Shown here: piece after piece, positions 46,906 through 53,391 of the stretch | Layout of the letters: the number at the start of each line of letters is the position of its first letter | How positions within the stretch are numbered: position 1 is the stretch's first letter | Origin: Oceanococcus sp. HetDA_MAG_MS8 | GTDB taxonomy: Bacteria; Pseudomonadota; Gammaproteobacteria; Nevskiales; Oceanococcaceae | Direction: 5' to 3' | Assembly (NCBI GenBank): GCA_019192445.1 | Contig: JAHCMK010000003.1 | Coordinates: forward strand, 496,001-560,000 | Length of the DNA stretch: 64,000 nt | Notes under the pieces: model-generated | Database searches by the model: none | The model's input: only the letters and a program-made list of their open reading frames with translations | Told to the model about the DNA's origin: nothing | Made by a program: the position numbers and the translations under genes

Positions 46906-49503
46906 ATGAGCGATTTCGCCAAGGAAGTGTTGCCGATCAATCTCGAAGACGAGATGCGGCGCTCCTACCTGGATTACGCCATGAGCGTAATTGTTGGTCG
47001 CGCCCTGCCGGATGTGCGCGATGGACTCAAACCCGTACACCGCCGTGTGCTGTACGCCATGCGCGAGTTGGGCAACGACTACAACAAGGCCTACAAGAAG
47101 TCGGCCCGTATCGTGGGTGACGTGATCGGTAAGTACCACCCGCATGGTGACTCTGCGGTGTACGACACCATTGTGCGTATGGCGCAGGATTTCTCCCTGC
47201 GTTACATGTTGGTCGACGGCCAAGGTAACTTCGGCTCCGTCGATGGCGACTCTGCCGCAGCGATGCGTTACACCGAAGTGCGCATGAGCAAGCTCGCCCA
47301 TGAGCTGCTAGCGGACATTGATAAGAGCACGGTTAATTTCATCCCCAACTACGATGAAACCGAGTCCGAACCAGAGGTGCTACCGACGCGGGTGCCGAAC
47401 CTGTTGGTGAATGGCTCCGCCGGGATTGCGGTGGGCATGGCAACCAACATTCCTCCGCATAATTTGGGTGAGGTGGTCGATGCTCTGCTGTACCTGCAAG
47501 CGCATCCGCAGGCCAGCATTGACGAGCTCATGGAATGCCTGCCCGCTCCAGATTTTCCGACGGGTGCCATCATTAATGGCACCTCCGGCATTGTTCAGGC
47601 CTACCGCACCGGGCGTGGCCGGGTAAAGCTGCGCGCACGCACCGAAATTGAGGAGCACGCCAACGGGCGCGAATCCATTTTGGTGACGGAGCTGCCTTAT
47701 CAGGTGAATAAAGCCAAGTTGGTCAAAGACATTGCCACCTTGGCTAAAGACAAGAAGATTGAGGGCATCTCCGAAGTTCGCGATGAGTCCGACAAAGATG
47801 GCTACCGAGTCGTTGTCGACCTGAAGCGGGGCGAGAATGCCGAGGTTGTGCTGAATAACCTCTTCCAGCAAACCCAAATGCAAACGGTATTTGGGATCAA
47901 CATGGTGGCTCTGGACCGGGGTCAGCCGCGGCAGATGAACCTGAAAGACATGCTTGAGGCCTTCCTCATGCACCGTCGCGAGGTTGTCACTCGGCGCACA
48001 CGGTATTTGCTGGCCAAGGCTCGTGATCGGGCGCATGTTTTGGAGGGTCTCACGGTCGCTCTGGCGAACATCGACCCCATTATCGCTTTGATCAAGCAGT
48101 CGCCTAGCCCCGCAGAGGCTAAGGCAGCTCTGTGCGCCCAGCGCTGGGCGCCAGGCTCGGTGATGGACCTGATTGAGCGGGCCCGCGCCCAGGCTGAAGA
48201 CAACGACCAAGAGCGGATCACCGACGAGGGCTATTTGCTCTCGGAGGTTCAAGCGCAAGCTATTTTGGATTTGCGTCTGCACCGCCTGACCGGCTTAGAG
48301 CAAGACAAGATCAAAGAGGAATTCAACGAGCTGCTGGATCAGATCGGTGAGTATCTGGACATCTTGAATCGTCGCGAGCGTTTGTTGGAGGTTATCCACG
48401 AAGAGCTGGTCGAGCTTAAAGAGGCCTTTAACGACCCTCGCCGCTCCGAAATTACCGCGGCGGTCGATGACTTTGAAGACGAGGACCTCATTCCGCCTCA
48501 GGACATGGTGGTTACCATGTCCCACAAAGGCTATGTTAAAGCGCAGCCTTTAGATGTGTACCAAGCCCAGCGTCGGGGCGGGGTGGGTCGCTCTGCGGCG
48601 AAGACCCGCGACGAAGATTTTGTGGATAAGTTTTGGGTCACCCACACGCACCACTGGTTGTTGTGCTTCTCCTCTCTGGGCAAGGTGTACTGGCTGCGGG
48701 TATTTAAGCTGCCCACGGGGGGGCGCGACTCCAAGGGGCGCCCCATCGTGAATCTGCTGCCCCTAGCAGACGAAGAGCGAATCACCCAGGTCTTGCCGGT
48801 CAAAGACTTTGATGCTGGCGATTTCGTCGTCATGTGCACTCGCTTGGGTACCATCAAGAAGGTGCCTTTGGAGCAGTTCTCCCGGCCGCGGAGTGTGGGG
48901 CTGATCGCTTTGGACCTGCGCGTGGACGACGAGCTGGTGTCGGTGGATCTCACCAACGGGGACCGCAACATCATGCTGTTCACCCATGAAGGGCGGGTTG
49001 TGCGTTTCCATGAGGCCGCCGTTCGGGCGATGGGACGCACGGCCTTTGGTGTGCGCGGCATTAAACTGGCCGAAGGCGACCGTGTGATTTCGTTGGTGGT
49101 GGATCATGGCGAACCCATCCTCACGGTCAGTGAGAACGGCTACGGTAAGCGCACCCCCATTGATGACTACCCGCTGAAGAGCCGCGGTACCATGGGCGTG
49201 CTGTCGATGAAGCGTACTGAGCGCACCGGCAAAGTTGTTGCCGCCATTCCTGTGGAAGACGGCGACCATGTGATGCTCATCGCGGCTGCGGGCCAGTTGG
49301 TGCGTACCGAAGTCAGCCAAATTTCTACTTTGAGCCGGAATACTCAAGGTGTGCGGCTGATTAACTTGCGGGATACGCACTTGGTGGCAGTGGACCGCAT
49401 CCGTGCCGAGCTTATTACTGAAGATGATCAGGCAGCTGCAGAGGTGCCGGTCGACACCGCAACTGATACCGAGCAGACCCCCGATAAGGACGAGGACGCA
49501 TGA
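46906..49503 (+). CDS. gyrA: DNA gyrase subunit A
   Basis: An 865-residue type IIA topoisomerase subunit that introduces negative supercoils with GyrB. The ATG at 46906 aligns the protein exactly with E. coli numbering: Ser83 and Asp87 of the quinolone-resistance region are both wild type (GDSAVYD), and the DNA-cleaving Tyr122 is in AMRYTE. The GyrA box QRRGGVG, which is needed for DNA wrapping, is present in the C-terminal domain. The tail is acidic (ending DKDEDA), like the regulatory tail of the E. coli protein. No strong ribosome binding site is seen. The stop overlaps the serC start as ATGA. Confidence 0.98.
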
Positions 49504-50582
49504 CACAGCCAATCTACAATTTCAGCGCCGGGCCAGCCATGCTGCCGGCTGCCGTGCTTAAAGAGGTTCAGGAGGAATTGCTGGACTGGCAGGGTAGCCA
49601 TATGTCGGTGATGGAAATGAGCCATCGCGGCAAGCAATTCATGTCTATTGCAGAACAGGCTGAAGCTGATCTGCGCAGCTTGCTCAAGGTGCCTGACAAC
49701 TACAAGGTGCTTTTCCTGCAAGGGGGAGCAACCGGCCAGTTTTCCGCTATTCCCATGAACCTCATGCCAGAGGGTGGCTCTGCCGACTATGTGGTGACTG
49801 GCTCCTGGGGGAAAAAGGCCATCAAGGAGGCCGGCAAGTACGGCACTGGCCGCTTGGCTGCGCAGGCCGAGGGCGGGTTTACCCATATCCCCGACCCGAG
49901 CGCTTGGGATCTCGATGCCAATGCAGCCTATGTGCACATCACTCCAAATGAAACCATTGAGGGTGTGGAGTACCACCAGATTCCAGACGTGGGCGACGTG
50001 CCTTTGGTGGGCGATTTCAGCTCCACCTTGATGTCTAGGCCGGTGGATGTGTCGAAGTACGGCGTGATCTATGCGGGCGCACAAAAGAACATCGGCCCTG
50101 CCGGGCTTGTGATCCTGATCGTGCGAGAGGATCTTTTGGGGCGGGCGCGCAGCACTTGCCCTAGCGTATTGAACTGGCAGGGCCAGGCCGAGGCCGGCTC
50201 CATGCTCAATACCCCTTCCTGCTTCCCTTGGTATGTGGCTGGCAAGGTATTCAGCTGGTTGCTGGACCGCGGTGGTCTGGAATCGATGGCCGAAATCAAT
50301 CAGCGTAAAGCCGAGGCTTTATACGCGGCGATTGATAACAGCGATTTTTACGCTAACCCCGTCGACCCAGCAGCGCGCAGCTGGATGAATGTGCCCTTCA
50401 CCTTGGCCGATGCCGAGCTGGATGCCACCTTCCTCAAAGAATCGGCTGATGCGGGCCTGCTCACTCTCAAGGGGCACCGCTCCGTGGGTGGTATGCGCGC
50501 CAGCATCTACAACGCCATGCCCGAAGAGGGCGTCAATGCTTTGATCGACTTCATGGCGGACTTCGAGCGCCGTAAGGGCTGA
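49500..50582 (+). CDS. serC: Phosphoserine aminotransferase
   Basis: A 360-residue class V PLP aminotransferase, second step of serine synthesis and also active in pyridoxal phosphate synthesis. It opens with the family signature [11 protein letters not shown]; the PLP lysine is Lys196 in [10 protein letters not shown]. The ATG overlaps the gyrA stop. In many gammaproteobacteria pheA follows directly; here a non-coding repeat block, a thioesterase gene and serA intervene. A strong terminator lies 20 bp after the stop. Confidence 0.97.
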
Positions 50583-50601
50583 GTCAGAGTCGGATCTCGC
50601 G

Positions 50602-50635
50602 AGGCTCTGCCGGGCTTTCCGGCAGAGCCTTTTTT
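50602..50635 (+). terminator. Rho-independent terminator of gyrA-serC
   Basis: A 12 bp perfect stem (50602-50613 with 50619-50630), 5-base loop and T run to 50635. Confidence 0.94.
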
Positions 50636-50651
50636 GTGCCTGCTGGTTTTT

Positions 50652-50875
50652 CCACAGATGAACGCAGATTTTCGCAGATGGGGTGGGTGAGTCCCCCGGG
50701 GGCACTGCGCTCACCATTCCGTACTGCGGTCAAGGACTAGCCAATGTGTTCTGCAGTGACGGGTGGCCCGGAGCCGCTCGCTCCGCCAGACGCCATGCGG
50801 TGCAGCGTCGCTAATTGCGAAGCGCCCCCCGCCATAACGCCCCAGTAATCTGCGTTTATCTGCGTAAATCTGTGG
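50652..50875. repeat. Element with terminal inverted repeats, copy A
   Basis: A 224 bp unit. The left end begins CCACAGAT and continues with two CGCAGAT copies; the right end is its inverted counterpart, two ATCTGCG copies then ATCTGTGG. The sub-repeats at each end are spaced exactly 10 bp, about one helical turn. No reading frame of note lies inside. It looks like a small non-autonomous mobile element or a REP/BIME-like unit. Confidence 0.75.
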
Positions 50876-50913
50876 CCAAAAACAGCCTTTGGATTAGGCG
50901 GAGTGGGTTGTTT

Positions 50914-51134
50914 CCACAGATGGCCACAGATATTCGCAGATGGGGTCGGTGAGTCCCCATGCGGCGCTGCGCGTGCTGTTCCTTGCTGCGGTCACGGAGC
51001 AGGCAATGTGTTCCGCAGTGACGGTTTGCCGTAGACGCCTGTTGACCCAAAGGGCTACCTCGCAGCGTCGGTGCTCGCGAAGAGCCCCCGCCAAAACGCC
51101 CCAACAATCTGCGTACATCTGCGCCAATCTGCGG
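50914..51134. repeat. Element with terminal inverted repeats, copy B
   Basis: A 221 bp unit in the same orientation as copy A, 38 bp after it. Ends are CCACAGATGG... and ...ATCTGCGG. The interior keeps recognisable blocks of copy A (GGTGAGTCCCC near the left end, CAATGTGTTC-GCAGTGACGG in the middle, CGCCCCA before the right end) but has diverged considerably, so the duplication is not recent. Confidence 0.75.
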
Positions 51135-51197
51135 CCAAAACATCCCCAATCCCATCGCTGAACCCGCAGTCGTTTGAGCTTGGCAGTAGGCGCCACC

Positions 51198-51270
51198 ATG
51201 AATGCCCCAATAATCCGCGTTTATCTGCGCCAATCTGCGGCCAAAACATGCCCCAATCCCGGCGCTGAAC
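51198..51270. repeat. Right-end fragment of the same element, copy C
   Basis: Only the right terminal repeat (51205-51240, AATCCGCG-TTTATCTGCG-CCAATCTGCGG) and about 30 bp of following sequence are present. The following sequence (CCAAAACAT ... CCCCAATCCC ... CGCTGAAC) also follows copy B, so copies B and C arose by a duplication that included flanking DNA. Confidence 0.7.
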
Positions 51271-51323
51271 TTAATTTTGGGCACGAGGCTCGCAAGCGCG
51301 ATGCGGCTGCGTTTCTGGTATCA

Positions 51324-51845
51324 ATGCCTCCCATGAGTACAAGCACACACACATCATCCGACGAAGCGGCCTTGGCCGAGCAGGTTTACATGGTCTTCCC
51401 CAATGACCTCAACGCCCACGGCACGGTCTTCGGCGGCCTAATCATGGCGCAGATGGATCGCTACGCTGCCGTATTGGCGGATAGGCATGCGCAAAGCACC
51501 TGTGTCACCGCCAGCGTGGATGAGCTTCATTTCATAGAGCCTGCAACCCGGGGCGATATTCTCATTTTTTCCTTGGCGATCAACCGCGCCTGGTCCAGCT
51601 CCATGGAGATTGGCGTGAAGGTTGAGGCGCGTGCGCATGACTCTGTGCAGCGGCGACATATCGTGAGTGCCTATTTCACCTTTGTGGCTTTGGATGAGGC
51701 CGGAGCTCCGCGCAGGGTCCCACCGCTGCGGCCTGCGGACGGCGCTGCACAACGACGCTATGCCGAGGCCCAACTGCGTCGCGAAAACCGTCTGCGACAT
51801 GCCTCTGAACTGAAAACGCTGCGTGCACAAACGGCTGCCGACTAA
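51324..51845 (+). CDS. Acyl-CoA thioesterase, hotdog fold (YciA/BFIT-like)
   Basis: About 173 residues from the ATG at 51324; another ATG at 51333 is equally possible and neither has a strong ribosome binding site. The hotdog signature MVFPNDLNAHGTVFGGLIMAQMDRYAA carries the conserved Asn-His-Gly-Gly region, and the catalytic acid is the Asp in QMDR. It hydrolyses acyl-CoA to free acid and CoA. The C-terminal 40 residues are charged and helical. An in-frame extension upstream would run into the repeat copies and is rejected. It sits between serC and serA with no obvious link to amino acid synthesis. Confidence 0.88.
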   Translation: MPPMSTSTHTSSDEAALAEQVYMVFPNDLNAHGTVFGGLIMAQMDRYAAVLADRHAQSTCVTASVDELHFIEPATRGDILIFSLAINRAWSSSMEIGVKVEARAHDSVQRRHIVSAYFTFVALDEAGAPRRVPPLRPADGAAQRRYAEAQLRRENRLRHASELKTLRAQTAAD

Positions 51846-52206
51846 TCAGGGGCAGAGCCTCAGTAGGTGACTAAGCCTGCGGGGCAGGGCAGTCACCTGC
51901 CCACCGCAGGTGCCGATGGAAGCATGCCCTGGACATAGCAGGTCGTTACTGGCGTTGGCGGCGAGCATTCTCAGGTCAATGAGTTATAGCGCCCATGGAG
52001 CTGGGGCAGTCAATATTCTTGAGCCTTTGTCTTGAGCTCTCATGGGTATGGTTTTGGGTTGCAAGGGTTGATTTTCAGGGGGGTTATAGGCCGAATAGAG
52101 TCAACACCCACATGCTCTGTGGATATCTGGGACAATCGCAACCCCGAGAGGCCGGGGAGGCGGTCTCCAATGTCATGGTCATTAGTCAGCAGGAAGCGAG
52201 CACCAC
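51846..52206. other. Intergenic region with hairpin, before serA
   Basis: No gene supported. At 51876-51910 a strong imperfect hairpin (CCTGCGG-GGCAGG pairing with CCTGCC-CCGCAGG) may end the thioesterase transcript, although no T run follows. The right half (51990-52200) is lower in G+C and must hold the promoter of the serA-pheA operon; no clear -35/-10 pair could be chosen. Confidence 0.4.
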
Positions 52207-53391
52207 ATGTATAAGGTTCTGACACTTAACAATATTTCCACGCTGGGCTTAGAGCGCTTGCCGCGCGATGCCTATGAAGTGGCTTCGGATTTTTCTAAGC
52301 CGGATGCCATTTTGTTGCGCTCCTTCAAAATGCACGACATGGAGATTCCATCGTCCCTGCAGGCAGTTGGACGAGCAGGTGCTGGCACCAACAATATTCC
52401 TGTAGACAAAATGTCCGGTTTGGGCATTCCGGTGTTCAATGCGCCTGGTGCGAACGCCAATGCAGTAAAGGAGCTAGTGTTGGCTGGCCTGTTTTTGGCC
52501 GCTCGCAACATCTGCCAAGCCTACAGCTATGTGCTTGGCCTAGAAGGCTCTGATGCCGAGGTGGAAAAGCAGGTCGAGGCGGGTAAGAAGGCTTATGCGG
52601 GGGGCGAGCTGCCCGGCCGAACTCTAGGCGTGATTGGACTTGGTGCTATTGGCATCAAAGTCGCCAATGCAGCCAAAGCTCTGGGCATGAAGGTGGTGGG
52701 CTTCGATCCGAGTCTGACGGTGCGCAATGCACTTTTACTAGATGCCGGTGTGGAGCAGGCTGTCTCCGTGGATGATCTGATGTCTCGCTGTGACTTCGTC
52801 ACGGTGCATGTGCCGCTCATCGATGCCACCAAAAACCTGATCAACGCTGAGCGGATCAAGCTCATGCCCAAAGGGGCCGTGGTGCTTAATTTTGCGCGTG
52901 CCGGCGTCGTCGATGAGCCCGCTGTGCTCGCCGCCTTGGATTCAGGCCATTTGGCCAGCTTTGTCACCGACTTCCCAACCAACCAAGGCCGGCATCACGA
53001 CAAAGTGATTGCCCTGCCGCATCTGGGCGCATCGACCAAAGAGGCCGAAGACAACTGTGCGGTGATGGTGGCCGATCAGCTCCGTGATTATTTGGAAACC
53101 GGAAATATCCGCAACTCGGTGAATTTCCCAGAGGCCATTCTTCCGGATGATGGTCAGCACTGGCGGATTGCTGTCGCGAACGCCAACCGGCCCAACATGG
53201 TGGGCCAAATTTCCACCATTTTGGGTGAGCATGATTTGAACATTCATGACTTGCTCAACAAATCGCGTGGTGACCTGGCCTACACCTTGGTGGATGTTGA
53301 TTCTGAGCCTGGCGCCGATGTGATGGCGGCCCTGGGGCAGATTGACGGTGTATTGAAGGTGCGGCTTATTGCGCCGCGGGATGCCGCATGA
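52207..53391 (+). CDS. serA: D-3-phosphoglycerate dehydrogenase with ACT domain
   Basis: A 394-residue enzyme for the first step of serine synthesis. The NAD-binding motif GVIGLGAIG is at 141-149, catalytic Arg231 in NFARAGVVDE and His272 in LPHLGAST. A C-terminal ACT domain (about 318-390, with NRPNMVGQIS) gives the usual place for serine feedback. The position of the relay glutamate (FPTEP in E. coli SerA) reads FPTNQ, so that residue is not conserved here, as in some relatives. The stop overlaps the pheA start as ATGA, which couples serine and aromatic amino acid genes. Confidence 0.95.
   Translation: MYKVLTLNNISTLGLERLPRDAYEVASDFSKPDAILLRSFKMHDMEIPSSLQAVGRAGAGTNNIPVDKMSGLGIPVFNAPGANANAVKELVLAGLFLAARNICQAYSYVLGLEGSDAEVEKQVEAGKKAYAGGELPGRTLGVIGLGAIGIKVANAAKALGMKVVGFDPSLTVRNALLLDAGVEQAVSVDDLMSRCDFVTVHVPLIDATKNLINAERIKLMPKGAVVLNFARAGVVDEPAVLAALDSGHLASFVTDFPTNQGRHHDKVIALPHLGASTKEAEDNCAVMVADQLRDYLETGNIRNSVNFPEAILPDDGQHWRIAVANANRPNMVGQISTILGEHDLNIHDLLNKSRGDLAYTLVDVDSEPGADVMAALGQIDGVLKVRLIAPRDAA

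Follow-up and report, generated by a model that had tools for sequence, protein, structure and literature searches.

The two array units that stand between serC and a thioesterase gene in the 64-kb stretch of DNA analyzed here (the window) are probably gene-less members of a repeat system resembling REPIN-RAYT, in which a gene of the GxxExxY family takes the transposase's place; we put the probability of this reading at about 0.6. An earlier note had described two units with inverted ends at this position, and we confirmed both, with three CRCAGAT sites per end (Table 1).

Table 1. Repeat units, arrays, and neighboring genes in the window
Feature	Position	Strand	Remarks
Unit 1, gene-less, inverted three-site arrays	50649..50881	.	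direct-repeat families D1 and D2, inverted pair I1
Unit 1 left array, CACAGAT-GAA-CGCAGAT-TTT-CGCAGAT, 10-bp steps	50653..50679	-	
Unit 1 right array, ATCTGCG-TTT-ATCTGCG-TAA-ATCTGTG	50848..50874	+	
Unit 2, second copy, 29 bp past unit 1	50911..51140	.	77% identity to unit 1
Unit 2 left array, three sites	50915..50941	-	
Unit 2 right array, three sites	51107..51133	+	
Third right end, locally duplicated	51191..51270	+	D2 (79%, 56 nt), D4 (90%, 20 nt), offset 106-107 bp
Array of third right end, first site ATCCGCG (one mismatch)	51213..51239	+	
serC, aminotransferase class V, upstream neighbor	49500..50582	+	ORF; PF00266
Thioesterase gene, 4HBT family	51339..51845	+	PF03061; elsewhere in three relatives

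The identity between the two units extends over query bases 1-233 of 237 in blastn, and the arms of each unit are separated by a spacer of about 170 bp, in which the list of open reading frames holds mechanical ORFs only and no gene is evident. The right ends that start at 50826, 51085, and 51191 are 79%-86% alike across 56 bases, and 51144-51163 matches 51251-51270 at 90%, so a piece of flank was copied along with the right end of unit 2. The third right-end fragment that had been described is therefore real as an array, but it is a local duplicate of the unit 2 right end and its flank, not an independent end. Neighboring exact CRCAGAT sites at this locus are spaced 10 bp from start to start in 9/9 cases, and a search for close pairs of such sites in the rest of the 64-kb window found none. 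When up to three mismatches were allowed, ATCTGCGNNNATCTGYG matched the window 27 times, compared with a mean of 12.7 and a maximum of 21 in 100 shuffles; the 10 matches with 0 or 1 mismatch all fall inside the stretch formed by the two units and the third end. Folded as RNA, the two units are more stable than their shuffles (z of -6.1 and -2.9), and Rfam gave no match up to E 1 in 50400-52300.

Arrays of this kind are found throughout the genome (G000 in our numbering; 3.53 Mb, 20 contigs). Three-site arrays with at most two mismatches occur 45 times, 23 of them exact, and the backwards pattern does not occur. By our own grouping of array positions, the 45 form about 17 clusters, with many inverted pairs and several tandem ones. 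The BLASTN search of the genome that the note had proposed did find further copies, although almost only the array ends match: outside its own locus, every match of unit 1 at E < 0.01 lies on query bases 1-45 or 191-236, so the DNA between the arrays is not common to the clusters found. Tandem neighbors such as the two window units do have intervening DNA in common. The features expected of a protein-binding array, namely ends in inverted orientation, an interior without a gene, and dispersed copies, are thus supported at the level of sequence. The exact 10-bp phasing claimed for the sites holds in the window but not everywhere: 66/77 spacings in 13 stretches of this genome are 10 bp (6 are 9, 2 are 11, and 3 are 15), and next to the GxxExxY genes found in other bacteria most are 9 bp (125/165), with 38/165 at 10 bp.

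GxxExxY genes occur as neighbors of such arrays, and this lead was tested here. The sole PF13366 gene of this genome (C2:486375-486713) is flanked by exact, mutually inverted arrays at 486274-486298 and 486866-486890, and its neighbors, identified with Pfam, are the homocysteine part and the pterin/B12 part of metH, present as separate genes. Its product scores 134.8 bits against TIGR04256 (cut-off 35) and 125.8 bits against PF13366 (cut-off 22). Residues G, E, Y, E80, K82, and Q94 are kept in 40 relatives, with E80 and K82 invariant and D70 present in at least 90%. The structural model (pLDDT 93.1) has a PD-(D/E)XK core. Its best match among solved folds is SSO0001 (4ic1), which we take to be a Cas4 (Foldseek E 1.5e-4, Z 9.8, rmsd 3.1, 98 residues aligned), followed by BpuSI and another nuclease-like fold at Z 8.1. 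By its modeled fold, with D...ExK, GxxExxY is a member of the PD-(D/E)XK superfamily with predicted nuclease activity. Transposases and TnsA are not among the fold matches listed, which is no argument against kinship.

The gene appears to be maintained: dN/dS is 0.06-0.15 in 8/10 gene pairs of the set from the carA-carB gap, where dS exceeds 1.3, so that only the direction (purifying) counts. One CGCAGAT-clade protein matched 8 of 72,556 plasmid records and none of 50,697 phage records, and the CGCAGAT-clade alignment found one relative on viral contigs; two plasmid matches that we examined, and a search of plasmids with serC, yielded nothing informative or relevant. The protein has no match in PADLOC or PHROGs, and none in the PDB by sequence up to E 1. 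In the literature searched, which lay outside subscription journals and preprints, we found no function for GxxExxY and no association of it with arrays; one paper labels a neighbor of an RT as GxxExxY (PMC8934634).

Inverted arrays frame GxxExxY genes in many other bacteria. PF13366 is present in 28/85 genomes of the order, and with a strict statistic for inverted 10-bp triplets 12/29 testable loci exceeded the largest value of 580 shuffles (33) and 17 did not; several of the loci below this cut have arrays that are shorter or whose sites lie 8-9 bp apart (CGCAAAG type), to which a 10-bp statistic is unsuited. A 30-base inverted pair with at least 24 matches was present in 28 of 38 further loci, a count made without shuffles (L071, with a short flank, was dropped from both counts). 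We also used the CGCAGAT-clade alignment to fetch loci from named genomes; 80 were obtained among the matches listed, and 75 were usable after 5 with a flank shorter than 100 bases were dropped. The inverted-repeat score of the flanks averaged 24.6 for these 75 loci among the matches listed, compared with a mean of 17.9 and a maximum of 23 in 375 shuffles; 50/75 loci scored above every shuffle and 25/75 did not. For the same loci among the matches listed, control windows 1.2 kb further out gave a mean of 18.2 and a maximum of 22 (n=58), and flanks swapped between loci gave a mean of 20.9 and a maximum of 28 (n=75), a fairly high score because the motif is common to the loci. The 50 loci above all shuffles come from 13 of the 18 named phyla tested among the matches listed, which bears out the remark in the earlier note that similar arrays exist in unrelated genomes. 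The motif in the 80-locus set is mostly CGCAGAT, as a result of the choice of query clade. Among the loci read here, the sole protein-coding gene that we saw framed by these arrays was GxxExxY.

The motif of the arrays follows the clade of the protein. Motif classes were assigned by regular expressions drawn up after the motifs had been seen, which gave 62 GAT, 35 RAG, 5 AAT, and 37 with none (37/140 proteins in the motif-less class). Duplicates (L127, L129, L193), broken genes (L062, L070), genes with stops (L180, L202), and a short one (L069) were left out of the tree set, and the 37 proteins without a motif class and one with a short flank were then removed as well, leaving a tree of 102 proteins that has few columns and many open forks. 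On this tree the motif class changes 4 times, where the least possible is 2 and the shuffled mean is 33.6 (0/200 shuffles as low); host phylum requires 23 changes, counted over the classed genome_contigs loci with a named phylum. Paralogs within one genome can differ in motif, as in G080 (L060 CGCAAAT, L083 CGCAGAT), G076 (L049, L087), G071 (L051, L084), and G072 (L055, L085). Because the motif tracks the protein clade, we infer from the sequences that GxxExxY proteins may recognize the arrays; a gene and its ends moving together as one unit would also make the motif follow the protein, without recognition.

Arrays away from the gene also co-occur with the matching clade. Exact CGCAGAT arrays are present in 14/85 genomes and CGCAAAT arrays in 15/85, with one control match overall (G019). 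After arrays at the gene itself were set aside (G078 and G041 had only those), CGCAGAT arrays were found in 9/13 genomes with a CGCAGAT-type gene versus 4/72 others (p 1e-6), and CGCAAAT arrays in 6/7 genomes with the matching gene versus 8/78 others (p 4e-5); both p values overstate the significance because the 85 genomes are mutually related. With Salinisphaera excluded and arrays at the gene included, the counts are 4/5 versus 2/66 for CGCAGAT and 2/2 versus 4/69 for CGCAAAT, and CGCAGAT arrays occur in 0/15 genomes that have other GxxExxY clades only. The CGCAGAT and CGCAAAT clades are each single groups on a 36-protein tree (support 88 and 89). Arrays in genomes without GxxExxY at E 1e-5 were found in 7/85 cases (G012, G019, G046, G054, G056, G081, G083), and the CGCAAAT arrays without a GxxExxY match number 102 in G054 and 22 in G019.

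The genes occupy fixed places. The CGCAGAT-type gene is single copy in 12/13 genomes, the exception being G079 with two that are 62% identical, and it lies between both halves of metH in 10/13; the two genes of G079 are at contig ends, with one metH half beside each. The CGCAAAT-type gene has one copy in 7/7 genomes and adjoins carA in 7/7, with carB directly across from it in 6 and about 0.75 kb off in G029. These neighbors are presumed to be metH, carA, and carB from short signatures, and Pfam backs the assignments in G000 and G080. A split metH with a GxxExxY unit between its homocysteine and pterin parts can be seen in L034 (1-4001), L044, L065, L066, L068, L072, L083, L084, L085, and L087.

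Filled and empty versions of a site could be compared at two places in Salinisphaera, which favors a mobile or at least insertable unit. Of 14 Salinisphaera genomes compared, 5 have a GxxExxY unit in the carA-carB gap and 8 have a plain gap of 115-138 bp there; in the remaining one, G083, the gap contains a degraded gene for an S23 four-helix bundle flanked by inverted GGGACTC arrays. The plain gaps do not align with the filled ones, which leaves replacement and insertion indistinguishable here. Loss is no less possible than gain, especially since two other families have the gene at this place. An array cluster of G080 is common to G071 and is absent, with both flanks kept, from G081, G072, G084, and G073; the contig of G074 ends at this site. 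Beside the G080 cluster lies a stretch of about 940 bp (L092, 2060-3001) that recurs at six further places in G080 at 100% identity and is probably an active insertion sequence.

At the window site itself, serA follows serC in three relatives, and the thioesterase gene is elsewhere in their genomes. The relative in the same genus (G001) has one different array pair in the serC-serA gap, and the two of a sister genus (G002, G003) have a short gap without arrays. Both species of the genus thus carry arrays in the gap; the thioesterase gene came in beside them in G000 only. The proposal that the usual serC neighborhood is interrupted here is accordingly right for the thioesterase gene, a newcomer, but not for serA, which directly follows serC in the three relatives. 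Local duplication had been named as the conclusion to draw if neither another copy nor an empty site turned up; 45 arrays were found, but no clean empty allele or boundary at the window site was present among the three relatives searched, where the gap is unalignable or holds the other array pair.

Compact copies of array pairs were compared in two genomes. From the pattern list for G029 and G054 we picked 40 places, pairs first and hence non-randomly, and dropped 8 that lacked two parsed arms; the remaining 32/40 each consist of two three-site CGCAAAT arms that end in GTC / GAC (in most cases CAGTC and GACTG). The arms are 0.92-0.94 identical in G029 and 0.86-0.89 in G054. In G054 the loops bear no relation to one another (alignment score 0.117 against 0.104 when shuffled); those of G029 show only a slight likeness (0.436, shuffled 0.331), and many of them start A-rich and finish T-rich. 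In the two sets, loops measure 19-22 in 16/17 copies and 12-15 in 11/15. When arms were permuted between pairs, within-pair likeness was equaled or exceeded in 107/2000 permutations for G029 and in 1906/2000 for G054, where within-pair identity is 0.864 and permuted identity 0.884. These comparisons speak for compact arms that may be selected as a site rather than as a stem, weakly in G029. Nearly constant loop length with unrelated loops suggests either that new DNA is taken up between remade arms or that in old copies the arms alone are kept under selection. Three compact copies of relatives fold into near-perfect DNA hairpins (z of -8.8 to -13.3).

The target-site duplications that the note had suggested looking for did not appear: direct repeats at the outer ends were not in excess in 46 GxxExxY elements and 34 compact copies, although the ends assigned to some elements may be off by a few bases. 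L220, an insertion nested within another element in G080, offered a candidate direct repeat, which was dropped because by eye it is usual inner sequence. In L094 and L251-L252, different motif classes are nested or adjacent, with CGCAAAT or CGCAAAG type around CGCAGAT type. The proposed non-autonomous mobile element therefore stands as far as dispersal and the filled and empty versions at the two Salinisphaera sites go, but not as a simple transposon copy, given that almost only the ends match, that no target-site duplication was found, and that the units and the third end partly reflect local duplication.

REPINs are described as REP doublets that form hairpins, with inverted ends and a short, highly diverse spacer, and singlets as their remnants (PMC8049555, PMC3116915). 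According to the same papers, the RAYT gene is single copy, vertically kept, not self-copying, and not seen on plasmids, and REPs persist in genomes without it (PMC8049555, PMC3116915); REP palindromes bear, on one side, a tag of the GTAG or CGTC type (PMC3733652). The inverted pairs with diverse spacers in G029 and G054 (32/40 parsed) are like these, and the window units have the same layout with their longer spacer. Also alike are the dispersal of gene-less pairs, arrays that outlive the gene, and a low-copy, array-framed GxxExxY gene at fixed, vertically inherited places that is nearly absent from plasmids. In contrast to REPIN-RAYT, the partner is a predicted PD-(D/E)XK protein and not a Y1/HUH tyrosine transposase, the ends are arrays of 7-base sites (CRCAGAT/CGCAAAT) at 9-10 bp rather than tagged single palindromes (a GTAG tag is absent by eye from the four window arms), and the arms look conserved as a motif rather than as a stem. 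By this analogy the array system would work like REPIN-RAYT yet is not a member of it, having another fold and arrays as ends. We found no report of GxxExxY in literature on REPIN/RAYT with a nuclease, subscription journals and preprints lying outside the scope of the search.

Other known elements share some features with the system. The units are like MITEs in size (60-500 bp), inverted ends, lack of a gene, intergenic position, and dispersal, and unlike them in that no target-site duplication was found, the loops of compact copies are not shared, and no known transposase with these ends was seen; the gene that the same ends frame encodes a predicted nuclease, which is not known as a transposase. 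The partner gene is a member of the GxxExxY family (TIGR04256, PF13366) by curated models, a family named after a motif and, in the literature searched, without a described function or array link. Intervening sequences of 23S rRNA with an S23 gene (PF05635) likewise have a short reading frame enclosed by inverted repeats. Inverted short-tandem arrays flank S23 genes in this order as well, and the degraded unit in one Salinisphaera carA-carB gap occupies the place that GxxExxY has in others; these systems differ in their unrelated protein and in an array period of about 7 rather than 9-10, and the classical intervening sequence sits in 23S rRNA. Among S23 loci (L269, L292, L278-L299), 14/21 have a 30-base inverted pair with at least 22 matches and a period of about 7 bp, in a count made without shuffles. 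The C. burnetii intervening sequence has GACAGAT heptamer repeats ahead of its S23 gene (PMC4990558).

In the reading that we prefer, GxxExxY, probably as a multimer, would bind the phased sites and bring two ends together, and would cut or trim DNA at the array ends; this would copy or maintain array pairs, much as REPINs depend on RAYT. The GxxExxY gene would be retained by the host, and gene-less pairs, the window units included, would be non-autonomous clients or relics, with unit 2 and the third end deriving partly from local duplication. In this reading it is GxxExxY that would bind the arrays and spread them. The gene stays at low copy in fixed, lineage-specific places (metH, carA-carB), while gene-less pairs reach 102 arrays per genome. 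Against a partnership count the seven array-bearing genomes without GxxExxY, among them G054 with its 102 arrays, the absent target-site duplication, and the nearest solved folds, which are processing nucleases and restriction enzymes, not transposases.

The most serious alternative, which we consider improbable, is that a host protein of another kind, nucleoid or regulatory, binds the arrays and that GxxExxY is a passenger or is simply regulated by arrays at its own promoter and terminator. The unpartnered CGCAAAT arrays of G054 and G019 would follow from it, arms kept in G054 as motifs rather than paired stems fit a double-stranded binding site, and spacing classes of 9 or 10 bp fit binding to one face of the helix. 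A single factor, however, leaves unexplained why the motif tracks the protein clade and differs between paralogs in one genome, and the clade-matched co-occurrence of arrays and gene also argues against it. RNA or single-strand hairpins (terminators or mRNA stabilizers) that need no DNA-binding partner are a good deal less likely still: the folding scores of the window units as RNA and of the three compact copies as DNA favor them, but complementarity within a pair does not clearly exceed that between arms of different pairs, the same short motif is found in many phyla, and no Rfam family matches.

MITEs of the ordinary kind, derived from an insertion sequence (DDE or other transposase) but having unusual ends, would account for short, gene-less, dispersed, intergenic units with inverted ends that are polymorphic between species, and dispersed copies in Salinisphaera do have longer internal stretches in common. 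We nevertheless regard this origin as very unlikely, since target-site duplications are absent from both aligned sets (46 and 34), the internal sequences of compact copies in G029 and G054 are unrelated even though the arms are 86%-94% alike, and the only protein-coding gene seen inside these arrays in the loci read is GxxExxY. Least probable of all is that nothing beyond local duplication took place in the serC-thioesterase gap. The internal sequence common to units 1 and 2 and the third end duplicated with its flank suit that explanation, but as a full account it is contradicted by the 45 arrays genome-wide, the arrays at GxxExxY genes of many phyla, and the other array pair, found between serC and serA in the same-genus relative.

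If GxxExxY is the partner of the arrays, a wider proposal can be made, which we hold only tentatively and think somewhat less likely to be right than wrong: GxxExxY and its phased arrays may be a separately evolved, multi-phylum counterpart of REPIN-RAYT, in which a domesticated PD-(D/E)XK nuclease recognizes its own clade-specific array and multiplies pairs by remaking arms around a fresh loop of near-fixed length. Remaking of this kind would account for the likeness of arms next to unlike loops. A second system built on the same plan could be that of the S23 four-helix-bundle genes and their 7-bp arrays.

Array DNA may also have been read as protein. The antimicrobial peptide predicted most often in one recent paper contains PQITQITQI (PMC13321764), and CCGCAGATTACGCAGATTACGCAGATT translates literally to PQITQITQI; that peptide is probably an array translated as if it were a gene.

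GxxExxY is an annotated family without a function that is present in many phyla, and its linkage to arrays gives it a concrete, testable candidate DNA target, with a specificity predicted from sequence. If the partnership is true, it would add a nuclease-based case to the very short list of long-lived partnerships between a repeat and a domesticated gene, and it would explain a type of repeat that is now mis-annotated as genes.
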